Shown piece after piece: positions 8,078 through 34,739 of a stretch of DNA of 39,918 nucleotides. Location of the stretch: NCBI GenBank assembly GCA_024280155.1, contig JAJRQQ010000098.1, forward strand, positions 1 to 39,918, in the 5' to 3' direction. The first letter of the stretch is position 1; every line of letters begins with the position of its first letter. This DNA comes from Bacteroidota bacterium (GTDB lineage Bacteria > Bacteroidota > Bacteroidia > Flavobacteriales_D > Crocinitomicaceae). A program made the translations under genes and the position numbers. The notes beneath the pieces are model-generated. The model was not told the DNA's origin and made no database searches. It worked only from the letters and a program-made list of their open reading frames with translations.

Positions 8078-8862
8078 ATGTATATTTTTGGATTATTCTT
8101 ATCTCTTTTCATTGGACTTGTTTTAGGACTTGTCGGAGGTGGTGGGTCAATTTTGACTGTACCATTAGTTCATTATGTATTTGGAGAACCTATGTTACTT
8201 GCAACCAGCTACTCTCTGTTTGTTGTTGCAATGTCTGCTACTTTTGGATCTGTTCAAAGAATAAAAAACAAGGAGGTTGATTTTGAAAAAGCTTTAATCT
8301 TTGTTGTCCCGAGTATGCTAATAGCTGTTGCAATACGATTATGGATTATGCCTATCATTCCAAAAGATTTTGAAATTGGGGGGATTGACCTTCACCGTTC
8401 TACCGTTATCACAATTTTACTTATCGCCGTAATGCTTTATACGGCAATACGAACTCTTCTAAATAAGAAACCGCCAAAACCGGATCCTGTTTCAAAGCAA
8501 ACAATTATTCTTTTTGGAATATTAACGGGATTATTGAGTGGTTTTATTGGTGCGGGCGGCGGATTTATCATCGTTCCTATCCTCTTAGGAATGGGGTTAA
8601 ATATGAAAAAAGCAGTTGCAACTTCGATGTTTATTATTGCAATTCAATCAGGTGTTGCCATGATTGGAGACTTATTCAATCCTGAAATTCTTGAAATGGG
8701 AATCAATTGGCCTTTATTACTTGCTATAACTGGGGTAACTATTCTTGGTGTTTTTCTTGGGAATATCTTTCAGAAGAAAGTCTCAACAACATGGCTGAAA
8801 AGGCATTTAGCCTATTGCTCCTTTTTGTTGCATTAGGTTTAACATTAAAATTATTTATTTAA
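8078..8862 (+). CDS. TauE/SafE family membrane transporter, frameshifted near the 3' end
   Basis: This family of anion exporters (sulfite, sulfoacetate and related) has two homologous halves. Each half is visible here through its glycine-rich turn: LVLGLVGGGGSILTVPLVHY near residue 20 and LLSGFIGAGGGFIIVPILLG near residue 160. The called frame ends at 8836 with WLKRHLAYCSFLLH. Adding one A to the A4 run at 8798-8801 restores WLKKAFSLLLLFVALGL and a final hydrophobic helix ending at 8862, giving about 261 residues, the normal family size. I therefore treat it as one gene with a missing base rather than a truncation. The start is ATG 8078. The substrate is not predictable. Confidence 0.82.
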
Positions 8863-8966: not shown

Positions 8967-9040
8967 GGTCCTATAGCTCAGCTGGTTAGAGCACCTGACT
9001 CATAATCAGGGGGTCCATGGTTCGAGCCCATGTGGGACCA
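8967..9040 (+). tRNA. tRNA, anticodon CAT; probably tRNA-Ile2 (lysidine type), otherwise elongator tRNA-Met
   Basis: A complete 74-base cloverleaf. The acceptor arm GGTCCTA pairs with TGGGACC, with discriminator A. The anticodon arm CCTGA/TCAGG closes the loop CTCATAA, with CAT at 9001-9003. The T-loop contains TTCGAGC. CCA is not encoded. A CAT anticodon can belong to Met or to the Ile2 tRNA modified by TilS. The C4-G69 and C5-G68 pairs, U29-A41, and A37/A38 match known TilS recognition features and favour Ile2. The 3' end is the attachment site of the adjacent integrated element. Confidence 0.95.
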
Positions 9041-9084
9041 CAAACCACGTTTAACGACGTGGTTTTTTTATGCCTAAACATTGG
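9029..9084. repeat. Left attachment repeat (attL), 56 bp
   Basis: This 56-bp stretch recurs at 17890-17945 with a single mismatch (C at 9074, T at 17935). It begins in the T arm of the tRNA with CATGTGGGACCA, covers the tRNA 3' end, and contains the whole tRNA terminator. Such long tRNA-end repeats are typical products of tyrosine-integrase insertion. Confidence 0.93.
9042..9069 (+). terminator. Rho-independent terminator of the tRNA gene
   Basis: A perfect 9-bp stem, AAACCACGT (9042-9050) with ACGTGGTTT (9057-9065), loop TTAACG, and a run of seven T at 9063-9069. An identical copy lies in the right attachment repeat at 17903-17930. Confidence 0.85.
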
Positions 9085-9175
9085 TAATGTATGTGCATCT
9101 GTAAGCGTGGAAAGGTTTTGAGAGTGGATTATCCTCTTTGTATGTGTACTCTTGTGAATAGATGAGCAATAATGT

Positions 9176-9226
9176 TTTTCTACTTATTTTCTACCTTACA
9201 CAAAAGCGGTTTAAAAAAGTAGAAAA
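9176..9226. repeat. Left-end TTTTCTACTT motifs, candidate integrase arm sites
   Basis: TTTTCTACTT lies at 9176-9185 and TTTTCTACCT at 9187-9196, an 11-bp period. A third copy is inverted (AAGTAGAAAA, 9217-9226). They lie between the attachment repeat and the integrase start. The same pair with the same 11-bp period occurs just inside the right end. Bases 9085-9175 show no other structure I can name. Confidence 0.6.
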
Positions 9227-9254
9227 AAGTTGCTTTTAAACTAAAACCAGCAAC

Positions 9255-10445
9255 ATGAAAAAAGTACAATTCACATTTGACTTTGGCAGAAAGAAAAAAA
9301 ACAATAAAGGCTTAATTGAATTAAGAGCATATTTAAGTGGTAAACAGAAATACTTTACAACGAAAATGTATGTGCTACCAGTTGAATGGAACAAGAACAA
9401 ACAACAGATTGTACGTCATAAGAATAAAGACAATCTAAATGACCAATTAGATACGATTATTGAACGCTTAGAGAAATCACAAAGAAAAGCATCCGACAAT
9501 AATCAAATTTTCAACCTTGAAACGGTCAAGATCCTAATGAATAAAGAGAAACTAAAAACAAACTCTTTTACTGATTTTTCACTCAAAGAAATAGAAGAAG
9601 ATAATAGTTTAGTAAAAGGAACTAAACACTCTAAGAAAAATACACTAAATAAATTATTAATTTTTAATGAAAGTACCCCGGTCTTATTTGAACAAATAAA
9701 CTATTCATTTTGTCATGACTTTATAAATTACGTTAAAGGGTTAGGTTTTAGTCCAAGTACAGTACTTAAACATCATAAAAATTTCAAATCATTAATCGAA
9801 CTGGCAATAAAGAAAGGGTATTATCAAAAAAACAATCCACTAAAGGAAATTCATATAAAAGTTCCCATTAAAAGAGTTATTGCTTTATCAAAAGAACAAG
9901 TCAAGAATATTGAAAAATTAAAATTTGAACCGTATGAAAATCGTTTAGAATTATTTCGTGATATGTTTTTATTCTCTTGTTATACTGGTTTAAGAGTTTC
10001 AGATATAACAACTTTAAAACCTGAACATATCAAAGAAAAAGAAGATGGTATTTATATCGAAAAACAGACTATTAAAACAAAGAAAATTGCAATATTACCT
10101 TTAAGTCGGCTTTTTCCACTCAAAGAAGAAAACACATCTAAGCCTATTAAAATATTAAATAAACATCTTCAAAAGAATAATGATTTAGTATTCAAAAAAT
10201 ATTGTGACCAAGTGTATAACAGAGAATTGAAACAAATTGCATTTAGAGCGAAAATTAAAGACATTAATTTAACTGCTCACATTGGCAGAAAGACATTTGC
10301 AACTTTTATAGGGAATCACACTTCATTATCAGTATGGGAACTACAATATTTACTACAACATAGTAACATTAAAACAACTGAAAAATACGTTTTCACTGAC
10401 GAAAAAAGAATTAATGAAAGTTTGATTAAAACGGACTGGGAATAA
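9255..10445 (+). CDS. Tyrosine recombinase (site-specific integrase) of the tRNA-inserted element
   Basis: 396 residues, the usual size for Bacteroidota integrases. The N-terminus (to about 90) is an arm-binding domain with the pattern GKQKYFTTKMYVLPVEWNK. A SAM-like core-binding domain follows (about 105-205), then the catalytic domain. Catalytic residues can be seen: Arg I in CYTGLRVSDI, a Lys in the beta-hairpin IKTKKIAILPL, the HxxR box HIGRKTFATF, and LLQHSNIKTTEKYVF with its His and the nucleophilic Tyr. It lies directly beside the attachment repeat, as expected for the enzyme that inserts and excises the element. No clear TAnnTTTG promoter precedes it; candidate arm sites do, so its own expression may be affected by binding there. 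Confidence 0.95.
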   Translation: MKKVQFTFDFGRKKKNNKGLIELRAYLSGKQKYFTTKMYVLPVEWNKNKQQIVRHKNKDNLNDQLDTIIERLEKSQRKASDNNQIFNLETVKILMNKEKLKTNSFTDFSLKEIEEDNSLVKGTKHSKKNTLNKLLIFNESTPVLFEQINYSFCHDFINYVKGLGFSPSTVLKHHKNFKSLIELAIKKGYYQKNNPLKEIHIKVPIKRVIALSKEQVKNIEKLKFEPYENRLELFRDMFLFSCYTGLRVSDITTLKPEHIKEKEDGIYIEKQTIKTKKIAILPLSRLFPLKEENTSKPIKILNKHLQKNNDLVFKKYCDQVYNRELKQIAFRAKIKDINLTAHIGRKTFATFIGNHTSLSVWELQYLLQHSNIKTTEKYVFTDEKRINESLIKTDWE

Positions 10446-10455
10446 AAGTACAAGT

Positions 10456-10509
10456 CCCTTAATCATTAATTTATTTTGGTTAAGTCGTCGTAATAATGTA
10501 TATTAAGGG
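10456..10509. repeat. Spaced inverted repeat CCCTTAAT / ATTAAGGG after the integrase
   Basis: CCCTTAAT at 10456-10463 and ATTAAGGG at 10502-10509, 38 bases apart, in the gap after the integrase stop. No T-run follows, so it may be a protein-binding site or chance rather than a terminator. Confidence 0.3.
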
Positions 10510-10562
10510 CGTGAAATGTAACTTTTTATGCAATTTTGTATATACAAGTGTAATAAATTGCA

Positions 10563-10570
10563 TAGTTTTG
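10563..10570 (+). promoter_or_regulatory. -7 element TAGTTTTG for the toxin-pair operon
   Basis: TAGTTTTG fits TAnnTTTG. A TTG lies 24 bases upstream, a few bases longer than usual. It falls inside the first codons of the longest open frame (from 10528), so the start is better placed at ATG 10588. Confidence 0.45.
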
Positions 10571-10587
10571 CACCTCAATTAAAAAAT

Positions 10588-11142
10588 ATGATTTTAACTT
10601 CTGACATATCGCAACAAAGCAACCCTTTAAGTGTTACTGGTATTTTGAATTCTTTAAATGAATATATTGAAGAGGTAAAAACGTTGAATATTGAACGTAA
10701 AAAAGAGATTAAAGCAAAGGCTATCGAAGATGACAAAAAAAGTATAATTGATGACCTTCTCCATAATCCAGTTACTCAAAAGGCATTCTTCGATTTTTTA
10801 TATACAGAGATTCAAAGTATAACAAAAGAAGATCTATTAACCACTATTTCTCAAAAAGAAGCTTTTGAGTTCTGTGAGAGTTTTGGAAAAGATATTGAAA
10901 CGATGTCAAAATTTCAAAATAAGTATGGGAAAAGTGATTTCATGAATTTGAAAGAATTTTTTGCTTTTAATAGTGCATTGGCTTTAATTAATTCAATTGG
11001 AGAATTCTACAATTCAATGTATGAAATTGCTTACAATGAAAATAGAGAAGAATACCTTTCCTTCATTAAAAAGGAAATTTTAAATATAAAAGAAGAAAGG
11101 CTTAACGTCGACTCTGTTAATAGTTTTTTTGAAAGCATCTAA
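10588..11142 (+). CDS. Unrecognised helical protein, possible antitoxin partner
   Basis: About 184 residues from ATG 10588; an open frame continues upstream to ATG 10528 but contains the putative promoter. I recognise no family. It is predicted mostly alpha-helical and highly charged. It starts with a flexible segment, then a Lys/Glu-rich helix (EEVKTLNIERKKEIKAKAIEDDKK), then a more hydrophobic middle (FFAFNSALALINSIGEFYNSMYEI). There is no signal peptide or membrane segment. It ends 12 bases before the RelE/ParE-like gene, and a terminator follows that gene, so the two look like one transcript. The order, larger gene before a RelE-like toxin, suggests an antitoxin of unusual size, but this is inference from position only. 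Confidence 0.65.
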   Translation: MILTSDISQQSNPLSVTGILNSLNEYIEEVKTLNIERKKEIKAKAIEDDKKSIIDDLLHNPVTQKAFFDFLYTEIQSITKEDLLTTISQKEAFEFCESFGKDIETMSKFQNKYGKSDFMNLKEFFAFNSALALINSIGEFYNSMYEIAYNENREEYLSFIKKEILNIKEERLNVDSVNSFFESI

Positions 11143-11154
11143 CAGAAAGAAAGA

Positions 11155-11514
11155 ATGTATAAGTTTGTACCATTCAAAAAACTTCGTAAAGATTTAAAAA
11201 AAATCAAAAAGTCAAATTCAAAAGAATTTTATTCCGATTTAGAAAGTGTAATTAAAGCGATTGGAGATGACCCATTAAATTATGGTGTTCCATATACCGG
11301 TAAATTGGATGGGTATTTTAAAGTGGTTTTCGGTGAAAAACCTGAATACAGAATTATATACTCTTTTACAAATCTAGAAGATATAAAAACTAGACCCGAA
11401 GATTTTTTAGATTGTTTTATAGATGATGATTTTGAAAATTATGACGGGATTTATGAAGTATTCTATATAAGGACCAGAGAGGAATGTACAAAATTATATA
11501 AAAATGGTTTTTAA
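11155..11514 (+). CDS. RelE/ParE-superfamily toxin-like protein
   Basis: 119 residues with the RelE/ParE pattern: an N-terminal helix (FKKLRKDLKKIKKS), a second helix ending IKAIGDDP, then GVPYTGKLDGYFKVVFG and the beta-strand PEYRIIYSF, finishing with a strand/helix VFYIRTREECTKLYK. RelE members cleave mRNA on the ribosome, while ParE members poison gyrase; the sequence does not say which. The basic residues in the GKLDGYFK and EYRIIY strands and in the final helix are where the fold places its active surface. An acidic insert (about residues 76-100, with DFLDCFIDDDFENYD) separates the last two strands and is not typical. It is co-transcribed with the preceding unknown gene and closed by a terminator. 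Confidence 0.7.
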   Translation: MYKFVPFKKLRKDLKKIKKSNSKEFYSDLESVIKAIGDDPLNYGVPYTGKLDGYFKVVFGEKPEYRIIYSFTNLEDIKTRPEDFLDCFIDDDFENYDGIYEVFYIRTREECTKLYKNGF

Positions 11515-11520
11515 AATCTA

Positions 11521-11552
11521 ACCAGGACTTTTAAAGTACCTGGTACTTTTTT
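11521..11552 (+). terminator. Terminator after the toxin-like gene
   Basis: ACCAGG (11521-11526) pairs with CCTGGT (11539-11544). An inner CTTT/AAAG pairing extends the stem, and a T-run follows at 11547-11552. It separates the plus-strand pair from the minus-strand repressor. Confidence 0.6.
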
Positions 11553-11594
11553 AAAAAACATATAGAAATAATCAACTAAGATTTATTTTAGCTA

Positions 11595-12257
11595 TTAAAT
11601 AATATTCAGAGATATTTTTGCAACAATAATAAATAAAATTTTAATATCTTCTTTAGCAACAATGATGTCTTCTAAGGATTCATTTTCAGATTTCAATACT
11701 AAATTATTGTCTTTATTATCTTGTGTTATTCTTCTATAAATAAAAGAATAATCATTAAGAGAAATCATATAAAATCTTCCATATTCTATTGCATTTTCTT
11801 TTATATCATCTAAATCAATATTTTTAACCCCTATATAATCTCCATAATTAAAATGAGGTTCTAACGCTTTACTTTTAAGTAAAAGGAAAAACTGAGCATT
11901 ATTTGCTCCAGACTTTAACATAATAAACCCTTCTCGATATGAAGCAGCTTCTTTTGAGTTTGGAAATTCATAACTATTGTAATATTTTTCAAATTTTTCG
12001 TTAAAAATATAAATCACACCTTTTTCCTCTTCTTCAGTAGTTGGTATTATAGTGTTTAAAATAATCATATTTTCAAATTCTTTAAGTTCAATTTGAAAAA
12101 GGTCAGCTAATGGTTTTATGTATTTAGCAGGTATAGATTTTCTAGACATCCATGCACTAACAGTTGCTTGACTTACCCCAATCAAATCAGAAATACTATA
12201 CGTAGTAAATCCATTTTGCTCATATAATTTTTTGAAAGCATCTTTATTTATATCCAT
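11595..12257 (-). CDS. XRE-HTH / S24-like repressor with degenerate catalytic site
   Basis: 220 residues. The N-terminal helix-turn-helix (SISDLIGVSQATVSAWMSRK, about 22-41) should bind operator DNA. The C-terminal half resembles the LexA/CI S24 peptidase fold: LKSKALEPHFNYGDYIGV, then YGRFYMISLNDYSFIYRRI, then LVLKSENESLEDI. In active S24 proteins the first block contains the Ser nucleophile (S-M-x-P) and the second the Lys (VKR). Here the aligned positions read Ala (A-L-E-P) and Arg (YRRI). It would therefore keep the dimerisation fold but not self-cleave. It is divergent from the excisionase-like gene, and candidate operators lie in the 71-base gap between them. This is the probable master repressor of the element. 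Confidence 0.85.
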   Translation of the reverse strand: MDINKDAFKKLYEQNGFTTYSISDLIGVSQATVSAWMSRKSIPAKYIKPLADLFQIELKEFENMIILNTIIPTTEEEEKGVIYIFNEKFEKYYNSYEFPNSKEAASYREGFIMLKSGANNAQFFLLLKSKALEPHFNYGDYIGVKNIDLDDIKENAIEYGRFYMISLNDYSFIYRRITQDNKDNNLVLKSENESLEDIIVAKEDIKILFIIVAKISLNII

Positions 12258-12261
12258 AACA

Positions 12262-12304
12262 TTTGGCAGTTTAATTACAATTAACTACTTTTGACTACAA
12301 TTAA
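12262..12304 (+). promoter_or_regulatory. Promoter with overlapping operator-like direct repeats
   Basis: TTTG (12262-12265), 20 bases, then TACTTTTG (12286-12293) make a full Bacteroidota -33/-7 promoter firing toward the gene at 12329. The 9-mer TACAATTAA occurs at 12276-12284, between the boxes, and at 12296-12304, over the expected transcription start. The copies are exactly 20 bp apart, so on the same face of the helix. This is what a repressor-controlled promoter should look like. Confidence 0.65.
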
Positions 12305-12328
12305 TCATTATTAACAATAAATAATAAT

Positions 12329-12583
12329 ATGGAATCAAAAGTAAACAAAAATGATTTGTCTAACAAAGAGTTGTTAGCAGATTTAGAAATGATGAGTAAA
12401 AAAGAAGTTGCAGGACTCTTAAAGGTGTCAACAGCAACAATTGACAGATGGGTAAGACTAGGACTGTTAAAACGTGTAAAACTAGGAACAAAGCATCAAC
12501 AAGCTAGAGTCTATTTTCATTATTCTGATGTCGTAGCATTTAAAAATGAAAGATATGGTTTTAATACTCCAAAACATGGATAA
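12329..12583 (+). CDS. Excisionase-like helix-turn-helix protein
   Basis: 84 residues with a MerR/excisionase-type winged helix-turn-helix: MSKKEVAGLLKVSTATIDRW followed by VRLGLLKRVKLGTKHQQARVYF. The first part is the turn with its recognition helix (ATIDRW); the second is the wing. Bacteroidota elements carry such proteins as recombination directionality factors (the Orf2x/Xis2c type) or as transcription activators. Divergent placement from the repressor and an operator-overlapped promoter suggest that it is the first gene switched on when repression is lifted, driving excision. A hairpin terminator follows. It could instead be an AlpA-like activator; sequence cannot separate the two. Confidence 0.8.
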   Translation: MESKVNKNDLSNKELLADLEMMSKKEVAGLLKVSTATIDRWVRLGLLKRVKLGTKHQQARVYFHYSDVVAFKNERYGFNTPKHG

Positions 12584-12610
12584 CAAGTCACTTAGCCTAA
12601 GTAAAAGAAA

Positions 12611-12642
12611 AAAAGGTAGCGTCAAACTACCTTTTAGATTTG
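12611..12642 (+). terminator. Terminator hairpin overlapping a -7 element for the next operon
   Basis: A perfect 9-bp stem, AAAAGGTAG (12611-12619) and CTACCTTTT (12627-12635), with a 7-base loop. TAGATTTG at 12635-12642 matches TAnnTTTG and may start transcription of the recombinase operon at 12677; no TTG is seen at the right distance upstream. Confidence 0.55.
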
Positions 12643-12676
12643 CAACCTCCACTTAACAACCAATTAAAAGAAGATT

Positions 12677-13836
12677 ATGAACAAAAATAATGAATTTTTA
12701 CTAGACACCCCTAGAATTAGCTTTTTTCTAAGAAGCAACGGAGATAAACAAAAAACATTCATGCTGTATTGTAGGGTCACATTAAAAGGTACAAAAGCAG
12801 AATTCTCTTTAAAAGAAAAAATTAAAAAAAAGAACTGGAACCAATCATTACAAAAATATAATGGTTCACTGCATCGAACAGAGTACATTTCTACATTAAT
12901 AGAAACCGTAACATACAGAATTAAATCTTTAGCATTAATGAGCAGTTTTGAGGTTGCTAAAGATTTAGTCATTCAATTAACAAAAACATCAAATAAAGTA
13001 GTTTATGTGTCTGATTTAATTGTGAATTATATTGAAGCTGTTAAACATAACATTTCTGCAGGTACATTGAAAAATCATCAAATAAAACTGTCAAATTTCC
13101 TGAAATATGAAAAAAAATAGGAAGAAAACTTACATGTAATTCTTTTACAATTCCAGAGGGGAAAAAATTTATTGATTGGTATTGTGAAGAAAAGGCCACT
13201 AAAAATAGAGCCACAGCAAGTAGGAATGTATTGTTCTATCGAAAATCAATGATTCATGCTGTTGAGAGTGGACAAATTGAAAGCTTTAAATTATTTCACT
13301 TCAAAGGGTGTAATGATAAAAAAAAGCCAATAATCTACTTAACAGCAAAAGAGGTTGAAATTTTGTCTAATTATACATTTGAAAATCGTCTTCTTAAAAA
13401 TATTAAAGACCTTTTTTTATTTCAATGTTTCACAGGATTATCTTATGGGGACATTTGGTCTTCATGGAATTTAGAGATAACGGAAATTGGAAGATTTTTA
13501 AAAGGTAATCGCCATAAAAATGGTGCTTCATATTTTATCCCTTTAACCAAAGAAGCTGAACAGATACTTAAAAAGTATAATTATAAGCTTCCAATATATG
13601 ACAATGGGACTTACAATCGAATTTTAAAAGAAATAGCCGCTATTGTTGGAATTAAAAAAAGATTAACATCTCATACTGGCAGAAAGACATTTGCAACGCT
13701 TCAAGATTCTTTGGGATGGAGTCGAGAGTCCATTTCTAAAATGTTAGGTCATCGTTCATTTAAAACGACTGAAACATATTATTTAGGAGATAGCGACATG
13801 AGAATTACAAACGAAATATTAAACAGAAAAAAATAA
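12677..13836 (+). CDS. Second tyrosine recombinase, IntDOT-like, with a -1 frameshift at an A8 run
   Basis: Two frames make one recombinase. The first, 12677-13120, holds the arm-binding domain (TPRISFFLRSNGDKQKTFML) and the start of the core-binding domain, and stops right after an A8 run at 13110-13117. A frame open from 13111 supplies the rest: SFTIPEGKKFIDWYCEEK, the catalytic domain, the HxxR box HTGRKTFAT, and MLGHRSFKTTETYYLG with His and Tyr. Joining them by -1 gives about 386 residues, normal for the family. The Arg I position reads FTGLSYGDI, with Ser; the CTnDOT integrase is known for the same Arg-to-Ser change, so activity is possible. The A AAA AAA heptamer is in the right phase for -1 slippage, but a missing A in the assembly is equally able to explain it. 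It starts the operon running toward the replication genes. Confidence 0.82.
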
Positions 13837-13841
13837 AAGAC

Positions 13842-14102
13842 ATGAAACAAATAACAAAACAAAATCAAATTGAATTGAAAGCTGCAATCAATGACATCAC
13901 ATCAACAATTATGGAACATGATCATAATGAAATTATTAAAATTCTTTCAGAAGTACATAGAGACATGTTAAACTCAAGTAAATATGTCGATAAAAATGTT
14001 TTGGTCGAAAAAGGAAAAATTATTCTTGATTTAATGTATTGTATCGCAGAATATGGTAGAGTTCAAACAAATATTTTCATTAACGAACATATAAAAGATT
14101 AA
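13842..14102 (+). CDS. Small helical protein, unknown function
   Basis: 86 residues, no recognised family. It is predicted all-helical, with a hydrophobic core in ILDLMYCIAEYGRV and charged ends; there is no signal peptide or membrane helix. It lies 5 bases after the second recombinase and 34 bases before the DUF3987 gene, so it is part of the same operon. A small accessory factor for excision or replication, like the small ORFs between int and the primase in NBU-type elements, is plausible but unproven. Confidence 0.6.
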   Translation: MKQITKQNQIELKAAINDITSTIMEHDHNEIIKILSEVHRDMLNSSKYVDKNVLVEKGKIILDLMYCIAEYGRVQTNIFINEHIKD

Positions 14103-14136
14103 ATAAGTAATTAATAATCATACTACAATAATAAAA

Positions 14137-15488
14137 ATGATAGAAACCGAAAACGAAAATGGTGTTAAAATAACAACACTCCAAAATCTTGAAATGGATG
14201 ACTACAAGAAATTGAATCCTAACTCTTTTCCTTTTTGGGTTTTTCCAAAAGTTGTACAAAACATAATTAATGACGGAAATAAAAGCTTAGGTTTTCCAAT
14301 TGACTTTTTGAGTGCTTCTATTTTTTTGCTTGTGGTCTGGCTAATGGATTAACAACAAAAATTGAAGTTAAAAAAGGTTGGGAAGAAACTACTGTTATGT
14401 ATTTGGCAATTGTTGGTAGAGCAGGAACTAATAAAAGTCATCCTTTAAGTTTCGCATTAAAACCAATATTCAAAGCTGACAATTCCAATTATAATATTTA
14501 TGAGAATGAATTAGAGTTATACAACAGTCAAACAGAAAATAAAGGAACACCTCCAAGATGGACAAAAACAATCATTCAAGATATTACAATTGAAGCGGTT
14601 GCAGATGTACACAACTTCAATAAACGTGGATTAGGAGTATATGCAGAAGAATTAAACAGCTGGCTTAAAAACATGAGCCGTTATAACAGTGGTAGTGATT
14701 TAGAGTTTTGGTTGTCCAGCTGGAGTAGTAAACCAATAATCATTGACAGAAAAGGTTCAAAAAGCATTAATATTCCTCAATCCTTTATTTCAGTGATTGG
14801 AACAATACAAAATGAAATACTAATGGATATAACTGGAGGTAAAAACAGTAAGAACGGTTTTACAGATAGAGTTTTATTTGTAATACCCGATAATCTAAAA
14901 AAAGAAAAGTGGTCAGATGAATCAATCAGTGATTTGTCAATTGAAAATTATTCTAAAATGATTCAAGCAATTTTAGACCAGAAACCCCAATATGATGAAT
15001 TCAACAGAATAAAACCAAATGTTGTACGATATACTTTAGGCGCTAAAGAAAAGCTAAAAGAGTGGCAATCAATGAACACGGACAGATACAATGGTCAGAT
15101 TAACAATGCCCTAGACGGTGTTTATAGTAAAATGGAAACTTATATCAGTCGTTTTGCTTTAACTCTTCAAATCATGTTTGACGCATGTAATGATTTTACT
15201 ACCAATAAAGTTGAACTATTTGCAATTAATGGTGCAATTGAAATAGCTGAATATTTTATTAAACAATCAAATAAAGTTGGGATACAGAACAGAAAACAAA
15301 CACTATTAAACGAAAATCTAAAGAAAAAAGAGTTCTACAATGACCTACCAACAGAATTTGAAACGAAACAAGCAATTGAAATCGGAACTACAAAACCGTA
15401 TAATTTTAGTACACGAGTAATAGAAAGATTTTTAAGTGAAAAAACGCTCTTCACAAAGATTCAAAGAGGACAATATAGAAAAGACTAA
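14137..15488 (+). CDS. DUF3987 replication protein (P-loop helicase-like), frameshifted
   Basis: The frame from 14137 (FPFWVFPKVVQNIINDG) stops at 14352; the frame from 14397 continues the same protein. Adding one T to the T7 run at 14321-14327 gives SASIFFACGLANGLTTKIEV and joins them to about 450 residues. The P-loop reads VGRAGTNKSHPLS (GxxGxxKS). A family block follows: YAEELNSWLKNMSRYNSG, then WSSKPIIIDRKGSKSINIPQ and FISVIGTIQNEIL. DUF3987 proteins of mobile elements are thought to act in replication as helicase- or primase-associated ATPases. The mirrored repeat array starts 10 bases after its stop, and the TOPRIM gene lies beyond it. The break may be an assembly undercall. Confidence 0.82.
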
Positions 15489-15498
15489 ACGTATATAC

Positions 15499-15711
15499 CG
15501 TCGGAAGCGTCGGGAACGTCGGAAGCATGGCGGAAACATTATGAACAATGCGTTTTCACTGTAAAGTTATTTGGCGGAAATGTGGCGGAAGCGTCGGAAG
15601 AATTTAATAGTTTCCGCCACTTCCGCCAAATCATTGACGGAAAACCAAAACAAAGAAACTCAATAAAAACAAGAGTTACAAGCTTCACCCGACGTTTCCG
15701 ACGTTTCCGAC
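15499..15711. repeat. Mirrored GGCGGAA/CGTCGGAA repeat array, candidate replication origin
   Basis: Forward units: CGTCGGAAG (15499-15507), CGTCGGGAA (15508-15516), CGTCGGAAG (15517-15525), then GGCGGAAAC (15529-15537), GGCGGAAAT (15573-15581), GGCGGAAGC (15584-15592) and CGTCGGAAG (15592-15600). The reverse complements follow: TTTCCGCC (15611-15618), TTCCGCC (15621-15627), and GACGTTTCC twice (15691-15708). The inner block 15570-15590 and its mirror 15611-15630 can fold into a long stem; the outer CGTCGGAA runs face outer TTCCGACG runs. Much more GC-rich than its surroundings. Its position between two replication genes suggests an iteron-type origin. Confidence 0.65.
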
Positions 15712-15725
15712 ACACTATTTAAGAA

Positions 15726-16772
15726 ATGTATAAGTATCAATTAGAAAATAGCAGTAATACTCCTTTTAATTCAAAGAAGAAATATAAGTGTCCAGCTTGT
15801 AATAAAAGTCATCGTTTTACAAGATACATTGATGTTGAAACAAAAAACTATCTACACCATAGCGTTGGTATTTGTGACAGAACTGATAGTTGTAGTTATC
15901 AATACACACCGAAGCAATATTTTTCAGATAACAACATTGTCAACCCAAATTTCAAACGTACACCTCTAGGTAAGAAAATACAAACTCCCATAAGTTATAT
16001 TGAGCAAAATCTTTTAGAAGCGACCTTAAAAGCTTATACAACAAATAAATTGGTTACTTTCTTAAAATCCATTTTTGATAATGAAACTGTCAATAATCTA
16101 ATTTCATTATACAAAATTGGAACTTCTAAGAGTTTCGGCGGTGGTTCTACTGTGTTTTGGCAAATAGATGCAGACAATAAGATTCGAAGTGGTAAAATAA
16201 TTCTATACAACGAAAGAACTGGTAAACGTACAAAGAAAATAAACTGGGTACATTCTTTATTGAAACTGAAAGAATTTAACTTAACTCAATGCTTCTTTGG
16301 AGAACATCTTATCAGACAAAATTCAAAGCCTATTGCAATTGTTGAGAGTGAAAAAACTGCAATCATTAGTAGTGTATATTTTCCTAATTATAATTGGTTA
16401 GCTAGTGGCTCAATGCAAAATTTGAATATCAAAAAATTCAATTCCTTAAAAGGTCGTAATATTATATTATTCCCAGATACATCAACAAATGGAACAGCCT
16501 TTAATTTATGGTTAAAACGTTCCGAAGAATTAAAAGAATTAGGTGTAAACTGTATTGTCAATGACATTTTAGAAAAAAATGCAAACAATGACGAAAAAAA
16601 GAAAGGTTGTGATTTAGCTGATTATCTTTTAAAACATCCAATAAATGAATTTAGAGAATCAAATCAAAAAAAGATTATAACTCAAAAAGATAAAACTCTT
16701 TCAAAGATGATAAAATCTAATCCTGTGATATCAAATCTGATAGAAACTTTTGACTTATATTTAGAATATTAG
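15726..16772 (+). CDS. Zinc-finger/TOPRIM primase-like protein (DUF6371 type)
   Basis: 348 residues. The N-terminus has a zinc-ribbon: YKCPACNKSHRFTRYID with CxxC, followed by GICDRTDSCSY with a second Cys pair. The centre reads FWQIDADNKIRSGKIILYNE, a pattern found in element-borne primase-like proteins. The TOPRIM fold follows: IAIVESEKTAIISS with the catalytic Glu, and NIILFPDTSTNG with the Asp. The combination fits an element-encoded primase making primers at the adjacent repeat array, analogous to PrmN1 of NBU1. The start at 15726 is 15 bases after the last repeat. An inverted repeat follows the stop. No helicase domain is fused; the DUF3987 protein may supply it. Confidence 0.8.
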   Translation: MYKYQLENSSNTPFNSKKKYKCPACNKSHRFTRYIDVETKNYLHHSVGICDRTDSCSYQYTPKQYFSDNNIVNPNFKRTPLGKKIQTPISYIEQNLLEATLKAYTTNKLVTFLKSIFDNETVNNLISLYKIGTSKSFGGGSTVFWQIDADNKIRSGKIILYNERTGKRTKKINWVHSLLKLKEFNLTQCFFGEHLIRQNSKPIAIVESEKTAIISSVYFPNYNWLASGSMQNLNIKKFNSLKGRNIILFPDTSTNGTAFNLWLKRSEELKELGVNCIVNDILEKNANNDEKKKGCDLADYLLKHPINEFRESNQKKIITQKDKTLSKMIKSNPVISNLIETFDLYLEY

Positions 16773-16789
16773 TTGATATCTATTAATAT

Positions 16790-16830
16790 ACAAGGAATGT
16801 GACAACTTAATACACGTGTCACATTCTTGT
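16790..16830. repeat. Imperfect inverted repeat after the primase-like gene
   Basis: ACAAGGAATGTGACA (16790-16804) pairs with TGTCACATTCTTGT (16817-16830), with one bulged G and a 12-base loop. There is no T-run, so it is a weak terminator candidate. It may be a protein-binding or nick-region hairpin (oriT-like), given the mobilisation-like gene downstream. Bases 16831-17000 are AT-rich with nothing else I recognise. Confidence 0.5.
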
Positions 16831-17012
16831 AAATCAAAAATATTACACTTGTCATACACCGTTCACACAGCCATTCGCAAGGTAAATAATAACGTTTTGA
16901 TATCGTGTTTTTGAAATATTTCGGTTGTTTTCACAAAAAATACTTCAAGAAAATAATTGAATATTAATACATAACACTTCTTTAAAAAACAAATAATTCT
17001 ATTGTGCATAAA

Positions 17013-17071
17013 GTTGTACAACCTTACCTATTCTCGTCTATTGCACAGTGTTTTAGCTAGTCATATCTTTG
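17013..17071 (+). promoter_or_regulatory. Promoter of the ribbon-helix-helix gene, with upstream palindrome
   Basis: TTG (17041-17043), 20 bases, TATCTTTG (17064-17071): a full Bacteroidota promoter. The perfect 10-bp palindrome GTTGTACAAC lies at 17013-17022, just upstream of the -33 box. TGTGCA and TGCACA flank the region as an inverted pair. Autoregulation by the RHH protein is plausible. Confidence 0.6.
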
Positions 17072-17106
17072 TGTAAACAATTAATAACCAATTAAAAAAA
17101 ACAATT

Positions 17107-17763
17107 ATGTCAGAGGAAACTCAAAAAGAAACAGTTGAACAAACTGAAAACAAAAAACAAAAAGCACCAAAGCGTGTAGTAATCAGCATTAGTGTAACAC
17201 CTGAAGAAAAACGAAAAATTTCGGTAGAAGCATTAAAAGACTACGAAACATCTGTAAGTGACCTGATTAGAAGTCGAATGTTTATCAAACCTGAAGAACC
17301 AAAAGAAAGTGAAGATACTTCAACTGAAGAAGAAAATGAAATTGACATTTACAAAGAAGTCATTCAAGATTTGAAAAATGAAATCTCTGAATTGAAAGAA
17401 AGTAATCTTCAATTGAAGTTAAATGAAAATGCTTCAACAAATGAAGAAATAGAAGATGAAAAAGAAATCATTAAACCAACAGTTCCAAAAGAAAATATAC
17501 TATTCATTGAATTCAAACAAGACGAAGATGAAAAAAGTATTATTCAAAAAATTAAAGAATATCGTTCTGAATTATTTGAAAAACTAGACCCAAAACTGAT
17601 TGAAGATTTTAGTGATTTTGATAAGTTTTCTAAAATAATCTTCTTGAGAGGTTTGAAACGTTCTTATAACAATGGTATACTTAACGAAAGTACTGGATTG
17701 TATATTAGTGATATTCAAAAAGCTTCAAAACTAGAACAAATTGATTATTCAGAAGAAGTTTAA
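17107..17763 (+). CDS. Ribbon-helix-helix mobilisation-like protein (MobC/BtgA type)
   Basis: 218 residues. After a charged leader, the segment RVVISISVTPEEKRKISVEA and then YETSVSDLIRSRMF match the ribbon-helix-helix pattern of relaxosome accessory proteins: a beta-strand, then two helices with S.LIR. A long acidic coiled-coil follows (about 75-125: VIQDLKNEISELKESNLQLK), and the C-terminal ~90 residues are unassigned. In Bacteroidota mobilisable elements such a gene usually precedes the relaxase, but here the element ends 127 bases later and no relaxase is seen. It may therefore be a relic, an accessory for a relaxase in trans, or a partition/copy-control regulator. It has its own promoter and a strong terminator. 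Confidence 0.7.
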   Translation: MSEETQKETVEQTENKKQKAPKRVVISISVTPEEKRKISVEALKDYETSVSDLIRSRMFIKPEEPKESEDTSTEEENEIDIYKEVIQDLKNEISELKESNLQLKLNENASTNEEIEDEKEIIKPTVPKENILFIEFKQDEDEKSIIQKIKEYRSELFEKLDPKLIEDFSDFDKFSKIIFLRGLKRSYNNGILNESTGLYISDIQKASKLEQIDYSEEV

Positions 17764-17778
17764 TCCCCCCCAGAAAAG

Positions 17779-17810
17779 GCTCAAAAGATTTTATCTTTTG
17801 GGCTTTTTTT
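17779..17810 (+). terminator. Strong rho-independent terminator
   Basis: An 11-bp stem with one G-T pair, GCTCAAAAGAT (17779-17789) with ATCTTTTGGGC (17793-17803), loop TTT, then seven T. It ends the ribbon-helix-helix gene, and its T-run merges into the right-end TTTTCTACTT motifs. Confidence 0.85.
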
Positions 17811-17827
17811 CTACTTTTTTTCTACTT
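17807..17827. repeat. Right-end TTTTCTACTT pair, candidate integrase arm sites
   Basis: TTTTCTACTT at 17807-17816 and again at 17818-17827, an 11-bp period identical to the left-end pair and in the same orientation. The pair lies 62 bases inside the right attachment repeat. Bases 17828-17889 show nothing further. Confidence 0.6.
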
Positions 17828-17889
17828 ATTAAAAATGTCTTTTTGTAAAGTCTTTAATTAGTAGGGGTTTCTATAAATATTAATTGGTT

Positions 17890-17945
17890 CATGTGGGACC
17901 ACAAACCACGTTTAACGACGTGGTTTTTTTATGCTTAAACATTGG
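17890..17945. repeat. Right attachment repeat (attR), 56 bp
   Basis: A copy of 9029-9084 with one mismatch at 17935. It contains only the last 12 bases of the tRNA plus the terminator hairpin, so it is the duplicated end left by integration, not a second tRNA. Bases 17946-18060 beyond it have no recognisable feature. Confidence 0.93.
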
Positions 17946-32979: not shown

Positions 32980-33504
32980 TTAATCTCTCATCACTGTAGT
33001 TCCTGTGATTTTGAAGTCTATTATTTCGAATTCTACTTTGTTTGGATTTATGGTGTAAACTTGAAGTTTATCCGCTTTGTGGTTGATGTCTGGAAGGTTA
33101 AATCTGTATTTTATCTCTTTATAATCTTTATTGCTGGAGTCTTGGTGTATTTCAACGCTGTGCCAATCGTAGCAGTTAAAACGGCTACAGGTTTCTAGTT
33201 TTAAGTAGATAGGATTAGGAGAGGTGGATAGAAAACGAATTTTGAAGCTCACATCGATTCGAGTTTCGTCAGATTCCAGTTTATCCAATAAAACAATATT
33301 CTCTATTCTGGAGCCGATAGTGTCTTTGTGAAAACTTAGCTTATTCACCAAGTAAATTGGAATAATCTTTTGTACTTTATATAACCCTGAGTTCTCAACA
33401 TTGTCGATCCAATTTATATTTTTTCGGTTCATTAATAATCTGTCTTCATTGAAATTTTCTTTGTCTATTTTCCCAAAGGTGTAAAAGTATTGTTGCTTAC
33501 TCAT
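32980..33504 (-). CDS. Unknown protein coupled to a GT-C-like membrane protein
   Basis: About 174 residues from ATG 33504, chosen because it overlaps the upstream stop as ATGA and because the longer frame to 33624 lies entirely inside the upstream gene. The product begins MSKQQYFYTFGKIDKENF and has no obvious signal peptide. The second half is beta-rich with NPIYLKLETCSRFNCYDWHS and ends DFKITGTTVMRD, resembling the small jelly-roll domains that follow membrane glycosyltransferases, but I do not recognise a family. It is convergent with pdhB, with 3 bases between the stops. Confidence 0.65.
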   Translation of the reverse strand: MSKQQYFYTFGKIDKENFNEDRLLMNRKNINWIDNVENSGLYKVQKIIPIYLVNKLSFHKDTIGSRIENIVLLDKLESDETRIDVSFKIRFLSTSPNPIYLKLETCSRFNCYDWHSVEIHQDSSNKDYKEIKYRFNLPDINHKADKLQVYTINPNKVEFEIIDFKITGTTVMRD

Positions 33505-34739
33505 TCTTTCGTGGTGAATAATACCTTTTCGAATTGATAGGATTGAAAAATTGAAAGAATTGAAAGAAGAAATCCGATGAAGAGGAAGGTGAATTTGTGT
33601 GATTTTTTCGAAAGAGAAACCCATAGAAAAGCGATAGGGATTGTAAGAAATGGGTAAATATCCGTCATGACCCTAGACCCAAATGAGCTAGCGTACCACC
33701 AGCATTCCCAGCTACTCATTATGTATATGTATATGATGATGGTTGGAAAAAAAGCCCAAAATAGATTTTTATTCCTTTTATAAAGATGTGTAAGTCCAAT
33801 GAAAGATAGAATGAAAACGGGGCTATATATTAGCCATCCTTTTCTAAAAGAAAATAAGAAATCGGTTAGGTTCGGATCGATGATGACAAGTTCTTCAACA
33901 TGAAGGTTAGGCATCAGTATTTTTCCACCAATAAAAAACCAATAAGCTATTTGTGGTATGTTCCATAGTAATCCAAACAATGGATAGTAAGAGATTTGAT
34001 AAAATAGTGTTTTTAAGTTGGGGGAGTCTTTCCAAAGCAGGATTAAAGGTGTTAGTCCAAGCATGGCTTGAGTTGGGCGAATAGCAACTGTGATACCGAG
34101 GAAAAGAGCAGAATAAATTAGGTTTTTCTTTTGATTGTGCTTCTTGAATAAAATCAGGTGATATAAGAATATACTATTGAGTGCAAATATATATAAGTGT
34201 GGAAGGTCTTTTTGTAGAGTGAATGTAAGGAATATGTTTGATGAAAGGTAGAGTAATAATATGGTAAGGGCCGCTGTTTTGTCGTCGAATAGGAGTAGAA
34301 GTAGCTTTCGTAGATAGACTAACCCTATGATGCAAAATAGTAAGGCGTTAAGTATGAATCCCACAACGTATGGAAGGCTAAATCCATCGGTTTTGTACCC
34401 GAGTTTAATTGCAAAAAAATGACTAATTGTATATGCGGGTAGTTGCAAATAGGCTAAACCTATATGGTAGAGGTCGATATAGTTTCCGTTTGGCTGCTTT
34501 AGTAATTGGTAGGTTTCTATTCCATTACAATAGTGGTCTTGAATGTCTTGTGCCCAATCTTTGTCAATGTTTAATGTTTTGTTTTCAAATAGTGAAGGTA
34601 AATACATGTAGTAACCGAATCCATCGTATGCGCATATGCAAGTTTGTTTTTTTTGTGTAAAGTCACTTATTGTCGTAGAAAAATGGATTGTGAATACAAT
34701 TGAGATGAAAATTACAATAAGAGCAGATAATTTTTTCAT
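33501..34739 (-). CDS. Polytopic membrane protein, GT-C/PMT-like glycosyltransferase candidate
   Basis: 412 residues with roughly ten hydrophobic helices. The start is at the conserved-looking MKKLSALIVIFISIVFTIH. The first extracytoplasmic loop holds ICAYDGFGYYMYLPSLFENK with an Asp, placed as in GT-C enzymes where an acidic residue in loop 1 is catalytic. Later blocks are LGITVAIRPTQAMLGLTPLI and YIMSSWECWWYASSFGSRV. Such proteins usually transfer sugars from polyprenyl-phosphate carriers, but the donor and acceptor are not evident. It overlaps the downstream small gene by 4 bases. The stretch upstream (34740-34956) shows no recognisable feature. Confidence 0.75.
   Translation of the reverse strand: MKKLSALIVIFISIVFTIHFSTTISDFTQKKQTCICAYDGFGYYMYLPSLFENKTLNIDKDWAQDIQDHYCNGIETYQLLKQPNGNYIDLYHIGLAYLQLPAYTISHFFAIKLGYKTDGFSLPYVVGFILNALLFCIIGLVYLRKLLLLLFDDKTAALTILLLYLSSNIFLTFTLQKDLPHLYIFALNSIFLYHLILFKKHNQKKNLIYSALFLGITVAIRPTQAMLGLTPLILLWKDSPNLKTLFYQISYYPLFGLLWNIPQIAYWFFIGGKILMPNLHVEELVIIDPNLTDFLFSFRKGWLIYSPVFILSFIGLTHLYKRNKNLFWAFFPTIIIYIYIMSSWECWWYASSFGSRVMTDIYPFLTIPIAFLWVSLSKKSHKFTFLFIGFLLSILSIFQSYQFEKVLFTTKE

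Follow-up and report, generated by a model that had tools for sequence, protein, structure and literature searches.

How does a small chromosomal island move between cells when it carries its own replication genes and no recognisable transfer genes? The question is raised by contig JAJRQQ010000098.1 of a Crocinitomicaceae bacterium (Bacteroidota). The window analysed here is this entire contig (39,918 nucleotides), which belongs to a metagenome-assembled genome (MAG) of 2.86 Mb in 114 contigs that is 88.8% complete. It holds an island of ~8.9 kb at a tRNA-Met gene, flanked by 56-bp direct repeats. We read the island as a self-replicating, helper-dependent element with the protein core of phage-inducible chromosomal minimalist islands (PICMIs), most likely moved by a phage, and put the probability of this reading at about 0.45. 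A tyrosine integrase and an HTH_17 factor would excise the island under the control of an S24 repressor, and the excised circle would be copied from a repeat array situated between a DUF3987 helicase and a DUF6371 primase-like protein. The island would then travel with the machinery of another element, the likeliest carrier being the particles of a helper phage, as for PICMI satellites and phage-inducible chromosomal islands (PICIs).

Insertion site and architecture

The target gene, tRNA-Met(CAT) at 8967-9041, remains intact. The attL-like repeat (9029-9084) begins with 13 bp inside the end of the tRNA gene, and its other 43 bp hold the hairpin-plus-T terminator located 3' of it; the attR-like copy spans 17890-17945. 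The two copies are identical at 55 of 56 bases, with no extension of the match on either side. Of the window's 28 exact direct 20-mer repeats, 26 stem from these two copies and the remaining two from a short match shared between the two integrase genes of the island. When 60 genomes were searched for 26 bases of the repeat, allowing up to 2 mismatches, this genome alone gave matches, two in number. The GC content of the island is 0.286, compared with 0.355 and 0.348 in the flanks.

The repeats and all genes lie on the forward strand, with the exception of the repressor. Adjoining the tRNA is the tyrosine integrase int1 (9255-10445; domains Arm-DNA-bind_5, SAM_5 and Phage_integrase, PF00589 at E 6e-14), followed by an open reading frame (ORF) of unassigned type and a toxin-like ORF. 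A divergent switch comes next, formed by the leftward repressor with helix-turn-helix (HTH) and S24 peptidase domains (11595-12257, reverse strand; PF00717, 2e-9) and the HTH_17/AlpA-excisionase-like regulator (12329-12583; PF12728, 8e-8; excisionase phrog_66, 3e-10). Downstream are a second tyrosine recombinase, int2, split into an N-terminal piece with Arm-DNA-bind_5 (12677-13120) and a C-terminal piece in a different frame (13231-13836), and a small ORF. The replication module comprises an N-terminal DUF3987 piece (14137-14352), the main piece of the same helicase-like protein (14397-15488; PF13148, 9e-40; phrog_2373), the array (15489-15725), and a PG0870-type primase-like protein with a Zn ribbon (1e-20) and DUF6371 (1e-59) at 15726-16772. 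A 0.33-kb gap containing an inverted repeat (16789-16831), an ORF of 218 aa (17107-17763) and a terminator-like hairpin complete the island before the second 56-bp repeat.

An earlier sequence-only reading had described a tRNA-inserted island of 8.9 kb with 56-bp end repeats, an integrase beside the tRNA and a divergent repressor/excisionase-like switch, all of which are confirmed. It had also placed DUF3987 and TOPRIM proteins around the array. DUF3987 and the array hold; TOPRIM is plausible, with no Toprim model matching at E 0.5 a protein whose Pfam name is DUF6371. The excise-and-replicate set that it called complete is present, and its completeness is uncertain because int2 and DUF3987 are frame-disrupted. 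The two-piece int2, both frame splits and a ParE/RelE-like ORF are features that it had not listed.

A repeat array before DUF6371

The array contains 11 CGGAA/TTCCG units against a Markov mean of 1.1, a count reached in 0 of 2000 simulations for this stretch, which was picked post hoc. The 220 nt before DUF6371 were surveyed at 74 loci for a 6-mer repeated above Markov expectation (p ≤ 0.01). A significant array is present at 38 of them, comprising 13 of 28 relaxase-linked loci and 25 of 46 others, and was not detected at the other 36. The same measure gave 2/192 in random stretches and 6/244 in matched controls from the same loci (other ORFs 4/124, helicases 1/59, integrases 1/61). The unit varies by lineage (GTTACA, TGCAAA, ACTGCA, CTGAAA, and CGGAAA in the window), and direct units turn to inverted ones in L108 and L117 and, mostly, in the window as well. 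A constant position combined with a changing unit is the pattern expected of a replicon's own origin; the array between DUF3987 and DUF6371 is a candidate origin, from which replication may start.

Relaxase-free relatives of the same size

Searching genome contigs for DUF6371 under the guidance of profiles gave 219 confirmed relatives, and the 80 best loci were analysed further. In 31 of these 80, which are integrative and mobilisable elements (IMEs), a relaxase is encoded no more than 4.5 kb from DUF6371, and none was found in 40, a class defined by at least 1.5 kb of sequence to the right of DUF6371; the right side is cut in the remaining 9. PF03432 was sought in 43 records with 44 loci (34 of the 40 relaxase-free, 5 of the 9 cut, 2 relaxase-linked and 3 viral) and matched somewhere in 12 of the 43 records. 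The relaxase-free assignment is carried by local relaxase profiles, because the PF03432 matches cannot be safely placed relative to the loci.

Twelve relaxase-free loci are bounded by two att-like direct repeats 6.2-9.1 kb apart. The 18-base core TTTTGTATCGGAAAGTAA (up to 3 mismatches) is present in two direct copies around the module, separated by the same 6.2-9.1 kb, in 9 of 99 survey loci (L103, L104, L108, L110, L111, L113, L114, L117 and L151) and in none of the 31 relaxase-linked loci, many of which have short flanks. Repeats of 48-49 bp at tRNA genes were found in three of 34 loci examined: at tRNA-Arg in the Flavobacteriaceae Bizionia (L119, 8.1 kb) and Aequorivita (L122, 8.3 kb), and at tRNA-Val in L146 (6.7 kb). 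L142 and L159 have shorter direct repeats, of 21-24 bp, which we did not accept as att sites. We also note that the TTTTGTATCGGAAAGTAA core lies outside tRNA genes and is common to Bacteroidota islands of different families and to the virus-database contigs L182 and L183.

These two contigs carry a single TTTTGTATCGGAAAGTAA copy each. L182 has no terminal repeats, and L183 (7,810 bp) has terminal repeats of 127 bp together with the single att copy that a circle would have. The terminal repeats fit a circle and also a concatemer or an assembler overlap, and listing in a virus database is no proof of packaging.

The sequence-only reading proposed that like islands be sought at tRNA genes. Comparable islands are the twelve bounded relaxase-free loci, three of them at tRNA genes, with other integrases and differing right ends. 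It further regarded relatives with a full relaxase set as a sign of a deletion derivative. This objection holds by half. Relatives with a relaxase do occur in gut Bacteroidales (L016, L019, L214 and L215), where a gene for a relaxase or mobilisation protein stands after the helicase-DUF6371 module, MobC being present in 2 of the 4 records opened. In contrast, relaxase linkage is seen in none of the top 4 DUF3987 matches and none of the top 21 DUF6371 matches of the window, four of the latter (L102, L106, L112 and L115) being cut on the right. The margin is small, and in rank tests module similarity to the window was not significantly associated with relaxase status (p 0.28 and 0.18). A quick DUF6371 tree of 107 rows, in which L189 and L198 of the 103 survey loci were omitted for their short DUF6371 ORFs, places 34 of 36 relaxase-linked loci in one clade of 42 rows (support 99), 8 of which are not relaxase-labelled. 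The window falls outside this clade, in a group that also holds several virus contigs.

Right-end proteins and the terminase question

The genes to the right of DUF6371 differ between relatives. A selection of 53 such proteins, drawn from 3 viral contigs and from 29 of the 40 loci without a relaxase, was compared with PHROG at E 0.001. Weak matches to phrog_24579, a terminase small subunit, were obtained for L182 (2.9e-6), L103 (2.6e-4) and L110 (4.4e-4), in each case for a protein standing after DUF6371. The family formed by these three and a protein of L104 may thus be terminase-like, with PHROG support for three of its four members; compared with viral models, the model of the L182 family comes closest to a small subunit for DNA packaging, with a weak E of 0.013. 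An L184 protein, also after DUF6371, matches phrog_309 (6.2e-10) and two further terminase-small families, and its putative terminase identity is better supported than that of the four-member family. Two right-end proteins match DUF5681. A protein of ~195 aa recurs at 12 loci, among them 7 of the bounded ones; it has five plasmid matches (best 36% identity, E 2e-24) and no match in phage records. The window contains neither the terminase-small-like nor the ~195-aa protein.

We also note the organisation of L184 (1-4734), a virus-database contig with 125-bp terminal repeats, which encodes a helicase-like ORF, DUF6371, the terminase-small-like protein and a small HTH-like ORF. No integrase was seen in it, and it is possibly a plasmid-like satellite. 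DUF6371 also occurs in the virus contigs L187, L188, L191 and L196 (10-57 kb), beside proteins that we take to be terminases from their appearance.

Comparison with known elements

PICIs, which carry a terminase small subunit gene (terS), share with the island a pair of divergent regulators (11595-12583) and what appears to be an own primase-replication module (14137-16772, with DUF3987 split). They differ from it in that no terminase small subunit or capsid-redirecting gene was found in the island, bar HTH-level matches.

A closer likeness exists to PICMI satellites of Vibrionaceae, whose DNA enters helper particles as a concatemer and which are modelled in the available part of PMC10803314 as an integrase, AlpA/HTH_17, a DUF3987/DUF5906 primase and a fis site. 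The island shares the small size and the core of integrase (PF00589), AlpA/HTH_17 (PF12728) and DUF3987. It too has no terS or packaging-redirecting gene, and no virion genes were recognised in it. The type PICMI is likewise without terS, sid and ppi, and the missing packaging gene is therefore compatible with a satellite. The island differs in its site (tRNA-Met instead of fis), in a DUF3987 that lies in two frames with no DUF5906 (PF19263) match listed, and in the addition of DUF6371, the S24 repressor and a second recombinase; its content and its database matches are of Bacteroidota type. The statement of the sequence-only reading that it knew of no well-studied satellite family in Flavobacteriales with this gene set needs qualifying in view of the PICMI model, of which the island has the first two components and DUF3987 but not the fis site. 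No described phage satellite of Bacteroidota was seen among the titles and abstract openings of the open-licence papers searched, a coverage that leaves aside the marine virion-encapsidated integrative mobilisable elements (VEIMEs) of PMC11389934 (available part); PMC12324425, as far as its available text goes, concerns a different marine element.

The island differs from a canonical IME in that no relaxase of its own was found. The Bacteroides IMEs (L016, L019, L214 and L215) resemble it in integrase, HTH, helicase (DUF3987 or AAA) and DUF6371, and differ in the relaxase or mobilisation protein after DUF6371, which is absent from the window. L016 carries cfxA and is presumably similar to Tn4555. 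The twelve bounded Bacteroidota islands resemble the window in size (6.2-9.1 kb), DUF6371 and the lack of a relaxase by profile, and those fully read (L110, L119, L122 and L146) also have integrase, HTH and helicase. They differ in integrases and sites, in right-end genes, in having no match to the S24 repressor of the window and, in some, in an AAA or D5-like helicase, the latter label being our assumption.

Phage carriage and its alternatives

The sequence-only reading had left a choice between a mobilisable unit that lost or borrows its relaxase and a satellite counterpart of the phage-inducible islands, and these proved to be the right alternatives. Its statement that no relaxase, conjugation or virion gene is visible is upheld by negative profile searches of the window and the MAG. 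Profiles representing the survey's three relaxase clusters match no window ORF. The MAG, in whose missing part a helper could be hidden, gave no match to PF03432 (relaxase), PF03237 (terminase) or TIGR03783 (conjugation ATPase). Among 14 control genomes, PF03432 exceeded its cut-off in 1, PF03237 in 6 and TIGR03783 in 0, which leaves the TIGR03783 search without a positive control.

The case for phage carriage consists of the PICMI core families together with the failure to find a relaxase, the bounded relaxase-free relatives, the terminase-small-like proteins of L103, L110, L182 and L184, the circle-like L183, the window's best module matches and its place in the DUF6371 tree, and the recurrent array. 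Other observations weigh against it. The window has no gene that is evidently for packaging: the 218-aa ORF matches no PHROG, and the matches of the HTH_17 ORF to terminase phrog_57 (3.8e-4, weaker than its excisionase match) and of the repressor to terminase PF06056 (0.006) are at the HTH level. The lack of PF03237 in the MAG means that no resident helper is seen. Scans of viral contigs returned no relative of the DUF3987 main piece or the right-end ORF and no exact copy of the att repeat. A terminase match is present in just 2 of the 12 bounded relatives (L103 and L110), and the L104 member of the same family has no PHROG match itself. Fold searches of that family gave nothing below E 0.001, sigma-factor HTH folds ranking first in PDB; it has no PDB-sequence support, no relative in phage records, and no relative in viral contigs except L182 itself. 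The commonest right-end gene of the bounded relatives, encoding the ~195-aa protein (7 of 12), is without functional assignment. The DUF6371 tree group of the window is weakly supported (82) and includes the relaxase-linked L131 and L133, and two genes of the island are frame-disrupted.

The alternative that survives best, which we nevertheless consider less likely, is a mobilisable island that borrows a relaxase, with the hairpin at 16789-16831 as origin of transfer (oriT) and the 218-aa ORF as a NikA/MobC-like accessory that recruits it. In relaxase-carrying relatives the mobilisation genes stand directly after DUF6371. The 218-aa ORF has a ribbon-helix-helix-like N-terminus and a weak NikA-like match (E 0.014), as has the right-end ORF of the relaxase-free L118; the match of the former amounts to 16 bits, however, under the family cut-off of 27, and it is not recovered at E 0.1 by a profile built from 11 MobC sequences of the class. 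The L118 ORF occupies the same position and shares no BLASTP similarity with that of the window. The hairpin scores highest among 25 gaps after DUF6371 (12 relaxase-linked, 12 relaxase-free and the window), with 10 uninterrupted pairs and 9 in the runner-up, although the window gap is also the longest of those searched (334 nt vs 138-260). Compared with 200 shuffled sequences in each case, the 150 nt containing it folded better than 198 as RNA and better than 192 as DNA; the inverted repeat could also be a terminator or an operator. Relaxase-less IMEs with an oriT and an accessory protein are on record (available parts of PMC5704250 and PMC11389934). The mobilisable genomic islands mobilised by SXT share with the island an integrase, no relaxase and a possible oriT; theirs is helper-like according to the available text of PMC5704250, whereas the island has a candidate hairpin alone. 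The MAG, with neither a relaxase nor a Bacteroidota-type conjugation ATPase found, speaks against this alternative within the limits of its completeness and of the weak control for the ATPase.

It is less probable still that the island is a decaying remnant, an IME or satellite that was formerly mobile and has become fixed in the chromosome. The splits of int2 and DUF3987 over two frames would agree with decay, as would the failure to find a close relative of the element. For the right-end ORF, 399 genomes contain no convincing relative, the one other weak match there being presumably flagellar, and plasmids and viral contigs contain none. Its weak PDB sequence matches resemble coiled-coil noise, and a single-sequence AlphaFold2 model was unusable, with a mean predicted local distance difference test score of 39. 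Two intact relatives align with both DUF3987 pieces, in different frames. The breaks are not counted as decay because host genes show similar changes: the TauE gene beside the island has one near its 3' end (8800-8862) relative to one of two relatives, and the host ORF pair 33501-34739/32980-33624 (within 32980-34739) appears frame-broken likewise. Indel errors of assembly or sequencing are a plausible cause. The att repeats differ at just one base, and int1, the repressor, HTH_17 and DUF6371 are open. A composite of a tRNA-Met element (int1 and cargo) with a nested int2-replication element of separate history is very improbable: the island does contain two different tyrosine recombinases, int1-like integrases do occur at tRNA-Gln with other cargo in two same-genus genomes, and int2, HTH, DUF3987 and DUF6371 represent gene types that characterise the DUF6371 class, but there is no second long direct-repeat pair inside the island, and paired recombinases precede DUF6371 in 7 of 80 survey loci.

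Carriage by a helper phage leads to a broader proposal, which we hold more tentatively: Bacteroidota, including Flavobacteriaceae, may harbour a broad undescribed satellite family built on a helicase-iteron array-DUF6371 cassette, of which the window would be a minimalist representative, packaged although it has no terminase gene itself. If so, the cassette would be common to relaxase IMEs, to relaxase-free islands with terminase-small-like or other right ends, and to phages, and the type of helper would be a swappable right-end module on a single replicon core. The survey suggests that one replication cassette serves conjugation-borrowing and relaxase-free islands alike. Interconversion of IMEs and satellites is therefore directly testable, and the survey provides concrete islands for this, two of which are carried by the culturable flavobacteria Bizionia saleffrena HFD and Aequorivita vitellina F47161.

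Cargo and neighbouring sites

The ORF after int1 (10528-11142) has no assigned function and is likely cargo; its PADLOC matches are weak (AbiTi, 0.0025; Cas11a, 0.0039), and PADLOC gave just weak or HTH-level matches for defence genes across the island. The ParE/RelE-like toxin ORF (11155-11514) is below the family cut-off, and the small ORF between int2 and DUF3987 (13842-14102) has no assigned function.

TauE and tRNA-Met are adjacent in relatives too. The right-flank genes of the window have no match in the 17 fetched regions of relatives, several of which are short, nor has the right-flank DNA in their TauE loci, and the empty site is consequently not readable. In the same genus, the TauE-tRNA-Met site holds other inserts (L087, 1358-7208; L210, 7722-12838). 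In G027 it carries a 396-aa integrase, with a second 71-nt tRNA-Met match 5.8 kb farther, and in G018 a different integrase adjoins tRNA-Met. The int1-like integrases at tRNA-Gln mentioned above lie in inserts L206 (5191-15780) and L207 (6471-10781), one of which encodes an ORF of 2448 aa that is reminiscent of SpvB/Tc-type B proteins.

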